DNA of 46,178 nucleotides from the IMG/VR virus record IMGVR_UViG_3300049716_000014, positions 1 to 46,178 of that record. The stretch is one strand, 5' to 3'. Both the position numbers and the translations under genes were made by a program. This stretch comes from a virus. Position 1 is the first letter of the stretch. Each line of letters begins with the position of its first letter. The notes under the pieces were generated by a model. That model saw only the letters and a program-made list of their open reading frames with translations. It was not told the origin of the DNA and made no database searches. Shown piece after piece: positions 9,203 through 20,961 of the stretch.

Positions 9203-9765
9203 GATGCGCATAACAAGCGCACGGCCTGGGGAAATGATAATCCCCTTGCCTTCTGTATAAATGATATAGTATCCTGGCATGACCAACCGCAAGAGAAGCA
9301 ATGAGCGCCCTTATTTGGTAAATAAATCACGAATGAGGGCGTTTTTTCTGCGTGAAAAATACAACAGGCTATCATTCTACCAGATCCACTGTTTTTAAGC
9401 CGCTCAAACGTCTGTACGCTTGTTATAGGCACGTTTTTAGCCCGTTCAATCATTTCATCAGTTACGCGGTTATCGTTCAACTGGGATTGATTTTGCTGGG
9501 TAATAATGACTTCTAAACGGTGCACCTGCTTATTATACCAATCTATATTATAATAAATTACTTTAATACACTGGATCAGGAAACGTTCGGTAAATATATC
9601 ATACCCGCGCAAGGTTATATCATGGATAATTTTAGCTTGAAATTTGACAGGTTTACGATATTCAGTCAGCAGCCGAGGAACCAACGTCTTAATTTCCTGC
9701 GGAAACGCATCTTTAATCTGTGCAACTGTAAGCGGAAGATTGCGATAATATTCATTAATCGGCAT
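9199..9765 (-). CDS. CHC2 zinc-finger primase-like protein
   Basis: 188 residues. The C-terminal 65 residues match the DnaG-type CHC2 zinc domain: CCIFHAEKTPSFVIY, then HCFSCGWSCQDTISFIQKARG. The N-terminal 120 residues are helical and charged, with no TOPRIM catalytic motif visible, so primer synthesis may need the helicase or a host partner. The start overlaps the upstream helicase end by eleven bases. This split arrangement (zinc domain separate from helicase) suggests the two proteins work together at the fork. Confidence 0.75.
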   Translation of the reverse strand: MPINEYYRNLPLTVAQIKDAFPQEIKTLVPRLLTEYRKPVKFQAKIIHDITLRGYDIFTERFLIQCIKVIYYNIDWYNKQVHRLEVIITQQNQSQLNDNRVTDEMIERAKNVPITSVQTFERLKNSGSGRMIACCIFHAEKTPSFVIYLPNKGAHCFSCGWSCQDTISFIQKARGLSFPQAVRLLCAS

Positions 9766-11104
9766 AAGTATGTTGATATTCTTTTTTCTTGTGAATATAT
9801 TGAGGCTTGAAACTTAATCCCGTATATGCCCGGATACGATCACCATCAGGCAAATAAATGCGGTTATCTTTTTTATTATAACCGCGCCTGGACATATATT
9901 CGGAGATAGTTTTACCACTTTTTTTGTATCTCATAATTTCTTCAAATTTTAACTTAAATTCACTTACCGGTATATACCCTTCTTCATCAATATCGCAATA
10001 ATCTTCAATAAACAAACCAAGATCATCCTCTTCATATTTATAATCATTAGTAGCATCCAATATAGAGGTTGGCGTTTGTAATCCAGATTCAGCCCATTTT
10101 TTATATCCATTTACAATCCATTTGAATATTCCCGGTAGTTCTGATCGTAACCGTTCAGGCAATTCTTTATCTTCTTGTTCAATGCTAACATTAAGATTAA
10201 AAGGTATCATGCGTATTTTACGCCATATGCCAGGATCGGTCCCACGAATGTTTGGTTTGTGGTTTGTGCTAATAAATATTTTAAATGTAGGCATAAATTC
10301 AAAAAATTCTTTATTAAGAAATCGAGCTGTTATTATATCTCCACCAGTTAATTGTTTAATTATAGATTCATCCAAAGTTACACTCTGATTGTTTTCAGCA
10401 GAAGTTACAAGTCGAGCGCCTTTAAGACGCGCTATATCATTCGGTATCCCTGGATTTTGTTTAAGCATGAAAGTTGTAATAGGACAATTTATTGTATATC
10501 CTCCAAAAATTTCTTTAATAATGTTTATAAAAGTAGATTTTCCATTGCGGCCCATGCCATAAAAAATAAACATACAATGCTCTTTTGTGGATTCAGTCAT
10601 TGAATAGCCAATAGCCCTTTGGACAAATTCTATGATTTCTGCGTTGCCTTGAAATATATTATTAACAAATTTTTCCCACATAGGACATTCGGAATTAGGC
10701 AAATAATCTATAGGAGATATTTTTGTTATAAGATGTTTGGGATTAAAAGCTAACATTTTCTTTTTATATAAATCTATCGTTCCATTATTGCTATTAAATA
10801 ATTCACTTATGGAATCAAATCTTGACGATGAAACTCCTAAATACGCTTGAGCACAATTAAGCATAGCATTTAGCTTAGCATCATTGCCGGCGTTTTTAAC
10901 AAAACGGGCAAAGTTCTCATATTGCTCGCGTTCCTGGTCATTGGTAGGATCGTAGGAAAAATTTGATAAGTCATTAACTAATTTTTTGTACGTATCAATA
11001 GCGAATTTTTTGATTTGATTATTTTTATCTAATTGCCATACTTTCCCATCGTAGTTAAACCATCCTCCCAAATCCCTGCAATAACGCACACTTTCTTTGT
11101 GCAT
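9755..11104 (-). CDS. P4/D5-type SF3 replicative helicase
   Basis: 449 residues from the first ATG. The N-terminal segment RYCRDLGGWFNYDGKVWQLD is typical of the D5_N region. The SF3 core follows: Walker A GMGRNGKSTFINII, Walker B region RLVTSAENNQ, and motif C KIFISTNHKPNI, with the arginine finger region WRKIRMIPF. The C-terminus is a winged-helix-like domain (ISEYMSRRGYNKK). The protein should unwind DNA at the origin as a hexameric ring. The same frame stays open upstream to about residue -25 with D5_N-like sequence (KEPHILYNDNHSAEIF) but no ATG, so the true start may be non-standard. No primase domain is fused to it. Confidence 0.85.
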   Translation of the reverse strand: MHKESVRYCRDLGGWFNYDGKVWQLDKNNQIKKFAIDTYKKLVNDLSNFSYDPTNDQEREQYENFARFVKNAGNDAKLNAMLNCAQAYLGVSSSRFDSISELFNSNNGTIDLYKKKMLAFNPKHLITKISPIDYLPNSECPMWEKFVNNIFQGNAEIIEFVQRAIGYSMTESTKEHCMFIFYGMGRNGKSTFINIIKEIFGGYTINCPITTFMLKQNPGIPNDIARLKGARLVTSAENNQSVTLDESIIKQLTGGDIITARFLNKEFFEFMPTFKIFISTNHKPNIRGTDPGIWRKIRMIPFNLNVSIEQEDKELPERLRSELPGIFKWIVNGYKKWAESGLQTPTSILDATNDYKYEEDDLGLFIEDYCDIDEEGYIPVSEFKLKFEEIMRYKKSGKTISEYMSRRGYNKKDNRIYLPDGDRIRAYTGLSFKPQYIHKKKEYQHTYAD

Positions 11105-12075: not shown

Positions 12076-13443
12076 TTAGATTGAAGCCTTCATCTGCCCA
12101 ATAATTTTCTTTTGTGTATCCTCATGACCATAATATAAATGTTGTTCGGCAAGCTCAAGATATTTACGGCATAACGGCCTATCATTAGCCTTCTTGGCGC
12201 ATAAAGCCGCCGCCCATAGCAGATCCCAGTCTTTAGGATTAAACCGTAAACACTCCATTGTCAAATATGACATCTTGACATAATTACCATGTTGCCAGCA
12301 AATTTGGATGTATTCTTTGTTGACGATAGAATACTGCGGCCAATGGTAGAAATGGTAGTCAAACATGCCTTGGATGTTTTCATACATCCTGTACGCCATA
12401 CTGGTAAAGCATATATTTACGGCCACTATACTGGCGCAGGCCCACCATGGCAATAACCACGCTAATATTACCTGCATGAATACGTTTGTCAGGACAATAT
12501 ATCGATCTGCTACGATCTGCGTTAAGTTGATTATGTTGCACCATTGGAGTGTCGATAACGCCATAAATACCACATAGCCTTTATACGCAACAGGTAGATA
12601 GATAACCGCAATGACCGATAACCCCAAAGCAACTGTTCCTTTAACAAAATCTTTGTTATAGCTGTACGCATCTTTATCCCCCTCTTGTGTAACTCCCCAC
12701 ATATACAAAAAATTGTAATTAGTACGTGTCATCATGGGGAAAATCATCTTAAAAAAATAAAATCCGTATGATTTTATGATGACTATAAGACGCTTTAGGT
12801 TGTAGTCTTTCCGAGAGCAAAGTACGATAGCTTTTTCTTTTGCGTGATAATGTGACAGCAATCGTTTCCTAAACAAAAACAAAATTAATGCTATAACAGG
12901 GATCATTGGCGGGTATAACACAGGGGAGCATATAGCCGTCATATGGAATAAAGGAGTGACGATGAACATTGGAAGTGCTGCAATTAACCACCATCCTCCA
13001 GCATGGAAACATGCCACCATCAGCAAGGCAAGAATAGATACTACAGCATACCGTCGCCCATTTAACCAACAAGAGATATGTGTTGTTATTGAGCTTGATG
13101 TCCATAGCAATACAGCCCAAAGAGAATGGAAGTCAAGATACATAAGGACGCCTATTAAAGCCGTGAGAGCAATGCTAAACGCATGATCGATTTGGACAGA
13201 AGTTATTGACCATCTTGTTATTTTTTGATCCCAATTAATTCCAAATGTTCCACCACCATATAGACGTTGGGTAATCCACGTAATAAAATTATTCAATTTT
13301 GGGTATTGCTGCCATACCCAATTACCTTTTTTTATCATGCCGTACCATCTAACATCATCGACAATTACTAATAGCTTTAATACGGGAAACCAAAGTATTA
13401 AATTAAATGCGATTATTACGAGATATGTCTGCCAAGTGGTCAC
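12076..13443 (-). CDS. Polytopic membrane protein with TPR-like tail
   Basis: 455 residues. About nine or ten hydrophobic segments fill residues 5-365, beginning with YLVIIAFNLILWFPVLKLLV. The soluble C-terminus (residues about 370-455) holds paired helices such as YVKMSYLTMECLRFNPKDWDL and CRKYLELAEQHLYYGHED that look like one or two TPR repeats. The overall form recalls GT-C type membrane glycosyltransferases with TPR tails, but the acidic loop motif is not clear (VDDVRWYG near residue 28 is a candidate). It overlaps the upstream membrane protein by 41 bases. It could modify the host surface; function is unproven. Confidence 0.55.
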   Translation of the reverse strand: MTTWQTYLVIIAFNLILWFPVLKLLVIVDDVRWYGMIKKGNWVWQQYPKLNNFITWITQRLYGGGTFGINWDQKITRWSITSVQIDHAFSIALTALIGVLMYLDFHSLWAVLLWTSSSITTHISCWLNGRRYAVVSILALLMVACFHAGGWWLIAALPMFIVTPLFHMTAICSPVLYPPMIPVIALILFLFRKRLLSHYHAKEKAIVLCSRKDYNLKRLIVIIKSYGFYFFKMIFPMMTRTNYNFLYMWGVTQEGDKDAYSYNKDFVKGTVALGLSVIAVIYLPVAYKGYVVFMALSTLQWCNIINLTQIVADRYIVLTNVFMQVILAWLLPWWACASIVAVNICFTSMAYRMYENIQGMFDYHFYHWPQYSIVNKEYIQICWQHGNYVKMSYLTMECLRFNPKDWDLLWAAALCAKKANDRPLCRKYLELAEQHLYYGHEDTQKKIIGQMKASI

Positions 13444-18265: not shown

Positions 18266-18336
18266 ATTCTACCATAATTTTTTTTAATGTCAAGGCATTA
18301 TTTTTGTATTGACATTATTTTATTTTTTAGTATACT
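18266..18336. promoter_or_regulatory. Facing promoters with an inverted repeat (operator candidate)
   Basis: Leftward: TTGACA at 18293-18288 and TAGAAT at 18271-18266. Rightward: TTGACA at 18309-18314 and TATACT at 18331-18336. Both spacers are 16 bases. The two -35 elements lie in the inverted repeat AATGTCAA (18286-18293) and TTGACATT (18309-18316). The -10 elements end 7 and 6 bases before the two ATGs, so both mRNAs would begin at or very near their start codon. A repressor bound to the repeat could cover both -35 elements at once. Confidence 0.7.
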
Positions 18337-18342
18337 TTAGGT

Positions 18343-20672
18343 ATGCTAAAATTACGTCCATATCAAGAAGATTTAATAAGCAATTCCCGTCAATTAATGA
18401 AACAAGGCGTTCGTTCCCTTATAATAGAAAGTCCGTGCGGTTCTGGAAAGACTTGCCTAACCGCTAAAATGCTTCAAACAGCGTCAGAAAAAGGAATGTC
18501 CTCGCTTTTTATAGTCCATAGAAGGGAACTTGTGAAGCAATCAATGGACACGTTCAAACTTGCCGGCGTTCCGCATGGCGTTATTGCAGCAGGGTTCTAT
18601 GAGGAAAAGAAGCATTTAGTCCAGATCGCCAGCATACAGACGTTGGCTCGTAGGGTTAAGTGGTTGAAGAAGCCTTCTCTTATAATCTGGGATGAGTGCA
18701 TAAGTGGGGATAGTATTATTGAAACAAATGTTGGACAAATTCGTATGGATAGTATACCATCATATAAAGATTTAAGAATTAAAAGTTTTAATGGGACAGA
18801 CATTGTCTATCCTAAAATCAAAGCATTTAAGGATTCTGGATTTAAAGAAATTTATGAAATAACTTTAGAAGATAGGAAAAAAATTAAATGTACCGAAAAT
18901 CATCCACTGATGACAAAAGAAGGATGGGTAGTTGCAGGGAAGCTAAAGAATGGCGAAAAAGTATTCGTATCTCCGCAAAACAAAAACGTTTTCTATACGG
19001 CACTCTTATTGGCGATGGTTCAATTGGATACCCAAATAAAAGATCAAAAACCCCTCGGTTGGCGTGGACTCATTCAGCCAATCAATTGGAATGGATGGAG
19101 TTTAAGGCCAATATATTACGAAACCTCAGAATCGGAATTGACCACGTCAGAAATGCAGGCTTTGGAGATTATTCTGTCAGAGGTAGAACCTCTTGCCTTG
19201 AAAGTCTTAAAGAAATACATTCCACAGTGTATAGGAATGGGAGAAAAACTATCAGCCAAGAATGGCTTCAGAGTCTCGGCTCTGAAGGAATTGCATGGTG
19301 GTTGTGTGATGACGGATGTTATCAAAGACGTTGCGGATGGATTGAATTTAATACTCAAGGATACAATTACAAAGAAAATCTTCTCATTCAAAAATTCTTT
19401 TTTGAAAGATATGGAGATTGTCGATTGTATCAACATAAAAGAGGGCATTATTCAGTTCGACTCCCAAAAGAATCTTCAAGAAATCTTATCAAAGATGTTA
19501 GAAAGTATGTGCCAGAATGTATGGCGTACAAGTTGGGTAAGAATAGAATCAATAAAAAAAGTATGTTCCGAGAAGGTCTACGATATATCTGTGGGTAGAA
19601 CTCACTGGTTCATAATTGTCATCATGTGGCCGCAAAGTCATGGTCAAAGATACATGACCAATACCCAGACGCTTATCACATTGGTTTGTCGGCTACGCCT
19701 TCCAGGCTTGACGGAACCGGCCTTGGCAAGTGGTTCAAAGCAATCGTACACGGGCCTACTGTTGAATGGCTTATTAATGAAGGCTATCTGTCAAAATATA
19801 AGCTATACGCCCCGTCATCCGTCAATGTGTCAGGCGTACATACACAGATGGGTGACTACAATCGCAAAGAGCTTAATGTTGCTACTGATAAGCCGTCAAT
19901 AACAGGAAATGCTATTCATCACTACATTAAATACGCTTATGGCAAACGGGCAATAGTTTTCGCAGTTTCTATTGAACACTCGAAACATATAGTAGCCGAT
20001 TTTCAAAAAGCCGGTATATCCGCAGTTCACGTTGATGGGGAAACACCTACAGAAGAAAGGGATTATGCAATCAATAAATTCAGAGAAGGATCAATCAATG
20101 TGCTTAGTAACGTTGAATTATTTGGGGAAGGATTTGACCTTCCCGCTATCGAAGTGGCAATCCTTCTTCGCCCAACTAAAAGCCTGGGATGCTATGTTCA
20201 ACAGGCCGGGAGGGTTCTACGCACCTTGGATGGTAAAAGAGAAGCAATCATCCTTGATCATGCAGGTAACTGTCAGCTTCACGGTTTGCCAGATGATGAG
20301 CGTACTTGGTCCCTTGAAGGTTCACGTAAGAAAGCTCAAGAAAAACCAGAAATAAGTGTTAAGATCTGCCCATCATGCTTCGGTGCGCAAAAGTCATATG
20401 TTAAAGCCTGTATTTATTGCGGGTATATATTCGCTGTTAAGTCACGCGAAGTTGAACATAAAGAGGGTGATCTGGTTGAAGTAAACTCCGAAATAGTAAG
20501 ACAAACAAGAACCAACGATCTCTGGCAGGCAAAAACCCGTGACCAGTTAATCGAACTTGGCCGACAACGTAAATATCGTCACCCGGAATATTGGGCACAT
20601 CATATATTACAAGCACGTCAATTAAGAAAAATAAAAGGTAAACCAGTGGAGGTATCAAATGGAAACTTATAG
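18343..20672 (+). CDS. DECH-box SF2 helicase, split by an intein and frameshifted
   Basis: N-extein: 118 codons in frame with 18343, including motif I SPCGSGKTCLTAKML and motif Ia FIVHRRELVKQS, ending at WDE (motif II). The intein fills 18697-19616. C-extein: from TGT at 19617, in another frame, starting CHHVAAKSWSKI (completing DECHH), then motif III LSATPSRLDG, motif V LFGEGFDLPAIEVAILLRPT, motif VI QQAGRVLRTLDG and a zinc ribbon with CPSC and CIYC. Joined, the exteins give about 469 residues, a normal length for phage restriction-type helicases. The two exteins are out of frame by net one base, so the protein is broken unless a frameshift occurs or the sequence is in error. It may be leaderless (see promoter). 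Confidence 0.8.
18697..19616 (+). mobile_element. Intein in the helicase DECH box, partly frameshifted
   Basis: Starts with cysteine directly after DE: CISGDSIIETNVGQIRM is block A. Block B is CTENHPLMTKEGWVVAGKLK, with the usual NHP and GW. Near the end, RIESIKKVCSEKVYDISVGR is block F-like. All are in the frame of the N-extein. The final VHN and following Cys (19608-19619) are in the next frame, so the element is 920 bases, not a multiple of three. The normal spacer between block F and the HN dipeptide is missing. A LAGLIDADG endonuclease overlaps it in the third frame. The insertion point is inside an essential motif, as is typical of inteins. Confidence 0.85.
18888..19598 (+). CDS. LAGLIDADG homing endonuclease nested in the intein, other frame
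   Basis: 236 residues, in a different frame from the intein's splicing blocks. First motif: KRFLYGTLIGDGSIGYP. Second motif: GSEGIAWWLCDDGCYQ. These are the two LAGLIDADG helices with acidic catalytic residues, and the spacing fits the two-motif family. The N-terminal 30 residues are basic and overlap block B of the intein. The stop TAG (19596-19598) lies just before the intein's C-terminal splice residues. It could be translated from its own ATG at 18888 (weak AGG about eleven bases upstream) or from an inner site. It would cut uninterrupted helicase genes to spread the element. Confidence 0.75.
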   Translation: MYRKSSTDDKRRMGSCREAKEWRKSIRISAKQKRFLYGTLIGDGSIGYPNKRSKTPRLAWTHSANQLEWMEFKANILRNLRIGIDHVRNAGFGDYSVRGRTSCLESLKEIHSTVYRNGRKTISQEWLQSLGSEGIAWWLCDDGCYQRRCGWIEFNTQGYNYKENLLIQKFFFERYGDCRLYQHKRGHYSVRLPKESSRNLIKDVRKYVPECMAYKLGKNRINKKSMFREGLRYICG

Positions 20673-20961
20673 CACAATCGGAACCGGCGTAAAAGTCACA
20701 GACCGCGTATTTACCAGCGATCAGCTTGGAGAAGCAGAAACACCATTTAAATATGTCATCAAGAATCTCGAAGGCCGCTTAATAGGACACCTGGTATTCA
20801 AGAATGGAGAGAACGAAGGAATATTGAATGAGGACCTGTTATCCGTTTTGATTGACCGTCTTGCCACGCAACAGGAAGGGATTAAGAAGGCGAGAGAGAT
20901 AGGTTTTGCTTTGGCCAGATGTGAAGAAGCATTAATGTGGTTGAAAAGCAGGGTAAAATGA
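20659..20961 (+). CDS. Second Acb2/Tad1-type hairpin protein
   Basis: 100 residues. The N-terminus is a short beta-rich part with VIKNLEGRLIGHLVFKNGEN. The C-terminal helices NEDLLSVLIDRLATQQEG and KAREIGFALARCEEALMWLK match the same hairpin pattern as the protein at 11703-12062, in the version that has a leading LLxVxIDRL helix. It may bind nucleotide signals made by host defence. The start is within the helicase end (overlap of 14 bases) and its stop overlaps the next gene (ATGA). Confidence 0.6.
   Translation: METYSTIGTGVKVTDRVFTSDQLGEAETPFKYVIKNLEGRLIGHLVFKNGENEGILNEDLLSVLIDRLATQQEGIKKAREIGFALARCEEALMWLKSRVK

Follow-up and report, generated by a model that had tools for sequence, protein, structure and literature searches.

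A class 1-type intein with an apparently overprinted homing endonuclease in a phage helicase gene

Inteins of the conventional LAGLIDADG type, such as PI-SceI, combine a HINT splicing domain with an endonuclease in the same reading frame and are inserted site-specifically. The intein described here interrupts a helicase gene in IMG/VR virus record IMGVR_UViG_3300049716_000014, all 46,178 nucleotides (nt) of which make up the stretch of DNA that was analysed (the window). It shares both domains and the site-specific insertion with the conventional type, which includes the inteins of a KLEP7 RNA ligase and of locus L120 (the latter at the same DE/C peptide as in the window, the slash marking the insertion point), but its endonuclease and its splicing domain are in different frames. 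By structure and by sequence alike, the closest match to the splicing domain is a cyanobacterial DnaX intein, the Spirulina DnaX mini-intein (PDB 7cfv). Inteins of this group also share the DE/C insertion peptide, and dnaX inteins of 430 amino acids (aa) have an endonuclease in the same +2 frame. They differ in their host gene, which is dnaX rather than a superfamily 2 (SF2) helicase, and the window copy is shorter and has a gap between its splicing blocks F and G.

The fractured genes of Dassa et al. 2009 reportedly carry split inteins, with an endonuclease gene between the halves. Some relatives of the window element, in Pectobacterium and Escherichia phages and in locus L091, are alike: their intein is split, and the endonuclease gene lies between the halves and also across them. 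In contrast, the intein is contiguous in the window, in Xanthomonas phage FoX3, in loci L008, L016 and L092 and in dnaX, and the endonuclease, of the LAGLIDADG family, overlaps splicing-frame coding sequence. In the ShiLan system, an out-of-frame HNH endonuclease is hidden in phage methylases; no splicing domain was found, and the insertion was proposed to stay in the protein (PMC11855218). As in the window, the ShiLan insertion can be read through in the host frame and conceals a homing-type endonuclease in a different one, but it has an HNH endonuclease and no splicing domain, whereas the window has a LAGLIDADG endonuclease and a HINT domain and so is not of the ShiLan type (PMC11855218). 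The ShiLan insertion carries a stop codon at its 3' end (TAAC; PMC11855218), which can be compared with L008:4725-4736, where the endonuclease stop TAA is made by the CATAAC codons of the intein's terminal His-Asn. Our literature search found out-of-frame endonucleases in this context only in the ShiLan work and one genome announcement, with Gorbalenya 1998 and a 2025 preprint outside its coverage. A passage of PMC11855218 cites these two, Gorbalenya's 'Non-canonical inteins' and the preprint on actinobacteriophage inteins, for overlapping frames. An intein whose endonuclease is out of frame may have been noted in either of them, and the endonuclease of DnaX inteins may likewise have been described earlier, possibly in Gorbalenya 1998.

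The window intein and its nested endonuclease

From sequence and predicted structure, we propose with high confidence that the window encodes a class 1-type intein at the DE/CH site of a phage SF2 helicase, overprinted by a homing endonuclease that would be made separately. The helicase N-extein (positions 18343..18696, + strand, as for the other helicase and intein features of the window) is RadD/ResIII-like, has a Walker A motif GSGKT and ends in SLIIWDE (PF04851, E=7e-16; NCBIfam RadD_YejH, E=5e-13). The C-extein (19617..20672) begins with CHHVAAKSW, its +1 residue being Cys, and carries a Helicase_C domain (PF00271, E=1e-18; RadD, E=4e-29). The insertion point lies directly after the DE of the DECH box, and intein-free homologues (L076-L078 and phage FoX1) read WDECHH without a break, as expected of a precise insertion in a conserved motif.

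The splicing frame is that of the open reading frame (ORF) beginning at 18343, and it contains no stop from 18331 to 19902; the stops between intein halves that mark fractured genes and split inteins are absent from the window. Blocks A and B (CISGDSII...CTENHPLMT), in the N-terminal splicing region (18697..18969), and block F (IESIKKVCSEKVYDISVGRTHWFI; 19543..19614) are all in this frame. As in class 1 inteins, there is a nucleophile at position 1 (Cys1, at 18697) and a TxxH motif in block B (TENH). The splicing region scores 36.2 bits against NCBIfam intein_Nterm TIGR01445 (cut-off 24.5), its N-terminal part matches the mini-intein 7cfv by phmmer (E=6e-9), and the region of blocks A and B reaches an independent E-value (iE) of 4e-34 with a custom intein hidden Markov model (HMM) whose training set partly included the window sequence. 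Pfam Intein_splicing (PF14890, E=7e-15) links N and C parts of one frame and extends to block F, which the custom HMM detects at iE 1e-3. Between them, the overprinted, stop-free linker (18970..19542) is predicted to be unstructured. In a model of the splicing frame, the HINT-like ends match 7cfv and other inteins, and the linker has a predicted local distance difference test score (pLDDT) near 30 (residues 93-278, below 50). Splicing is predicted for intact copies of this element; the window copy reads as a damaged rather than an intact class 1-type intein.

The endonuclease ORF (18888..19598; 236 aa, ATG at 18888, TAG at 19598) is in the +2 frame relative to the splicing frame, numerically the same frame as the helicase C-extein, which in this contig lies outside the splicing frame. 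It matches LAGLIDADG_2 (PF03161, E=6e-24) and is 41% identical, over the matched part, to an out-of-frame ORF of FoX3. Because a PDB sequence search with the endonuclease alone gave no match at E<=1, it was compared by fold. Foldseek matched its AlphaFold model (pLDDT 88.7) best to I-WcaI (3.7e-14) and I-SceI (2e-12), with a template modelling (TM) score of 0.74; PI-SceI is a poorer structural match (TM about 0.51). The protein has the two motifs with catalytic acids and the two-lobe fold of LAGLIDADG homing endonucleases and is predicted to cut DNA; the catalytic Asp positions, D43 and D142, are invariant across 26 sequences.

A preliminary description of the window had placed an intein in the DECH box, with Cys directly after DE and blocks A, B and F in the frame of the helicase N-part, and a LAGLIDADG endonuclease with its own start and stop outside that frame. 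The family matches and direct reading bear this out, as do the homology of the splicing blocks to known inteins (TIGR01445, PF14890, 7cfv) and the uninterrupted WDECHH of the intein-free helicases. Two points are new: the splicing frame is open throughout 18331-19902, and block G is present, though in the other frame.

The endonuclease ATG of the window overlaps the Cys-Thr codons of block B. A start built from these codons (TGY-ACN) also occurs in L016 and in the Pectobacterium and Escherichia phages, and in L008 and the dnaX inteins the ATG comes from GGATGG (Gly-Trp) of the same block. The Shine-Dalgarno-like sequence 5' of the ATG ranks within the top 1-9% locally in FoX3, L008, L016 and the Pectobacterium and Escherichia phages.

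Both frames appear to be under constraint. We shuffled synonymous codons within the endonuclease ORF 5000 times, so that neither the protein nor its codon usage changed, and each time tallied the stops of the splicing frame. The window itself has none across the ORF, where 5.4 are expected, and none of the 5000 shuffles reaches zero (P<2e-4). The third frame has stops at expectation.

Relatives with the same frame offset

Using the endonuclease as query, we searched IMG/VR, GTDB genomes and GenBank phages and assigned frames with an automated test. In Xanthomonas phage FoX3, a homologous helicase carries a 314-aa intein at the same site (DE/CHH), and the blocks A, B, F and G of this intein are in one uninterrupted frame within a single 788-aa helicase ORF. 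A 252-aa endonuclease ORF is nested in the +2 frame, and no endonuclease can be read from the middle of the intein in the splicing frame. Phages FoX1, FoX2, FoX5, M29 and Murka are about 98% identical in DNA to FoX3 and have no intein. The frame test also identified +2 elements in the IMG/VR phages L008 and L016, in Pectobacterium phages (five records, of which two were read), in two Escherichia phages and in eight cyanobacterial loci (L065-L072), whose flanks and DE/CHM site are those of dnaX. A further IMG/VR phage, L092, has the same offset and a contiguous intein. Endonucleases of phages with this offset are 38-41% identical. The endonuclease is in frame in more distant relatives, such as those in the KLEP7 RNA ligase, LR756508 and L017. 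This conservation in other phages and in cyanobacterial chromosomes points to a real, long-lived arrangement.

Contiguous elements have no splicing-frame stops, against 3.2-8.6 expected from the synonymous shuffle; the same is true of L092 (4.7 expected) and of additional cyanobacterial copies (3.0-8.3 expected). Among 386 cyanobacterial genomes drawn, 32 have a dnaX-type intein match, and in 10 of these the match is of 430 residues with the endonuclease beginning 227 nt in (one of the 10 has a stop inside the endonuclease). The other dnaX-type matches are shorter or broken, several of them keeping the endonuclease ends, and none of the intein matches listed from this draw has a stop in the splicing frame. 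In pairs of cyanobacterial copies, differences fall mostly at endonuclease codon position 3 within the overlap and at splicing codon position 3 upstream of it, and, over the same DNA, the copies of a pair share more amino acids when read in the endonuclease frame than when read in the splicing frame (identities of, e.g., 74 versus 56% and 56 versus 35%). These patterns show that the amino-acid constraint on the cyanobacterial copies, as read from their substitutions, acts on the endonuclease frame: the endonuclease sequence is conserved, and the linker is mainly kept open.

Some relatives have a reduced endonuclease. The dnaX inteins of L071 and of genomes G067 and G094 have in-frame deletions that shorten it and leave the splicing frame open, and these are likely to be steps towards mini-inteins. 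In a mini-intein at L085:4114-4440, the Cys-rich N-terminal stretch CRCWCG and the C-terminal tail PDCMHYK survive in the +2 frame; we take both as remnants of a lost endonuclease.

In a phylogenetic tree, the contiguous +2 endonucleases form one group (support 90/92), and those of L103 and L120 are placed elsewhere. The best tree unites every +2 element, split or contiguous, in a single clade, yet that clade is unsupported (55/0).

Proposed mechanism, the gap between blocks F and G, and competing explanations

We hypothesize that translation in the helicase frame yields N-extein, N-intein, a disordered in-frame linker, C-intein and C-extein, and that the HINT domain of intact relatives would cut itself out along with the linker. 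Ribosomes initiating inside block B, in the +2 frame, would make a free I-SceI-like LAGLIDADG endonuclease. This enzyme would cut intein-free DE/CH alleles, and repair would copy the element in. The short DE/CH motif common to the helicase and dnaX would explain the same type of element in two unrelated genes. In the window copy, splicing would fail through a gap of 22 nt while the endonuclease ORF stays intact.

The gap is evident from the distance between the V of VYD and the +1 Cys, which is 41 nt in the window versus 63 nt in seven relatives, exactly 22 nt fewer. Its footprint is CTGGTTC (19605..19611). One frame of this heptamer gives part of H-W-F from block F and the other gives L-V-H from block G, a pattern that recombination between two direct copies, or their collapse in assembly, would produce. 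Block G (SLVHN, with LVHN followed by CHH; 19602..19616) is now in the endonuclease's frame, and the gap shifts the C-extein into that frame as well. Blocks F and G ending in HN, with Cys, Ser or Thr at +1, are in frame with block A in FoX3, L008, L016 and the dnaX relatives; in the window, F is in that frame and G is not. The preliminary description had the endonuclease sharing a frame with the helicase C-part. This holds for the window contig; all relatives whose F/G region is intact have their C-extein in the splicing frame, and the shared frame is best read as an accident of the gap, specific to this contig.

Several observations weigh against the proposed reading. In the window, the break of the splicing frame at F/G puts the two helicase halves in different frames, and the copy as read cannot splice. 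The helicase would then not be made as one precursor, and a good ribosome site is lacking at the GTG at 19626. The Shine-Dalgarno match before the window's endonuclease ATG is unremarkable (-4.2 kcal/mol, 22nd percentile), and those of the cyanobacterial copies are weak. The elements are related by descent and are therefore not all independent tests. Lastly, no close nucleotide relative lacking the F/G gap turned up in an exact search, and the gap could thus be an assembly error; for the gap alone, such an error is a fair if less probable explanation.

An assembly or sequencing error in the wider sense, in which the phage really has a single continuous frame through the intein, would fit a virus-record contig of unknown read support and a gap at a possible short direct repeat prone to collapse. 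We consider it very unlikely, since it leaves unexplained the endonuclease frame, which is common to the isolate FoX3. The preliminary description had offered a nested gene or an element partway through decay. Decay of a standard in-frame intein, in which the endonuclease and the splicing blocks lost their common frame through chance frameshifts, could draw on the one genuine frame break, at F/G of the window contig. Random damage would not leave one frame stop-free and the other intact, however, and the same +2 offset with an open splicing frame is found in phages with only 38-41% endonuclease identity and in cyanobacteria; together with the layout shared by FoX3 and the absence of the intein from its near-identical relatives, this makes decay a highly unlikely cause of the frame difference. 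The nested gene is well supported by FoX3, L008, L016, L092 and dnaX, and the one lesion particular to the window copy is the F/G gap.

Production of the endonuclease as a fusion with the N-parts of helicase and intein, through a programmed -1 frameshift out of the splicing frame, is suggested by the equivalence of the +2 frame to a -1 shift and by slippery-type heptamers within the overlap of some relatives. No in-frame slippery heptamer occurs in the window or in Pectobacterium and none is common to the relatives, whereas the endonuclease ATGs are built from conserved block B codons, often behind a Shine-Dalgarno-like stretch, and we regard this route as improbable. The fold of the endonuclease is closest to the intron-encoded I-SceI and I-WcaI, as it might be if a group I intron or a free-standing endonuclease had been inserted and the intein-like blocks were coincidental. 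That explanation is hardly credible given splicing blocks that are significant in several libraries and boundaries that are exactly DE/C...HN/C; there was also no Rfam match at E<=1 in 18300-20700.

Split inteins, other overprinted nucleases and implications

The Pectobacterium and Escherichia elements differ from the contiguous ones in having 13 and 10 splicing-frame stops, respectively, against 12.5 and 12.0 expected. Their N-part (blocks A and B) and C-part (blocks F and G) are in the same frame and flank and overlap the endonuclease gene. It appears that here the linker is free to gain stops and the intein is split. Stops between the intein halves are present in L009, L010, L074, L075 and L091. 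In the regions L009:1054-4260, L074:1863-4997 and L091:4007-6600, the annotation lists hypothetical, endonuclease and helicase genes separately; these helicase loci resemble split inteins in which an overlapping endonuclease is nested.

Other nucleases are overprinted in the +1 frame of inteins at DE/C sites. In IMG/VR, a LAGLIDADG endonuclease is so placed in a UvrD-like helicase intein (L103:4007-5370), with no splicing-frame stops against 23.2 expected (minimum 12 in 5000 shuffles). Vsr/DUF559-type nucleases are nested in contiguous inteins at L093:4242-4895 and L107:4164-4949, again without splicing-frame stops (9.5 and 13.0 expected); their C-extein begins with CDE and looks like a terminase-type ATPase. 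In L120, the LAGLIDADG endonuclease at the same DE/C site is in frame.

The window is a 46-kb phage contig whose genes include a terminase, a head-tail adaptor, a major head protein, RecE/RecT and a primase. The primase-like ORF (9755-11104) matches the C-terminal half alone (model positions 338-769) of phage primase families, and the N-terminal half was not found in the single neighbouring ORF tested (12076-13443). A plus-strand ORF at 7243-8430 matches an anti-restriction protein of the PHROG collection (E=3e-9).

Endonucleases of inteins are usually treated as in-frame domains, and annotation of the host frame only overlooks overprinted ones; the 788-aa protein of FoX3 is annotated simply as helicase. 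With its conserved sequence, the overprinted endonuclease offers a clean example of opposite constraints on overlapping genes: one protein is conserved, and the other is mainly kept open. The shared DE/CH target ties phage helicase inteins to cyanobacterial dnaX inteins, and the pair FoX1 and FoX3 renders homing directly testable. We lean towards the view that overprinting of an endonuclease on the linker is a recurrent intein design of several origins and one route to naturally split inteins. If so, overprinting would allow an endonuclease to be made without the splicing domain and would relieve the linker of folding, and stops entering the linker would then give a naturally split intein, as in the Pectobacterium and Escherichia phages. 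The layout thereby suggests a route by which split inteins and 'fractured' genes may originate.
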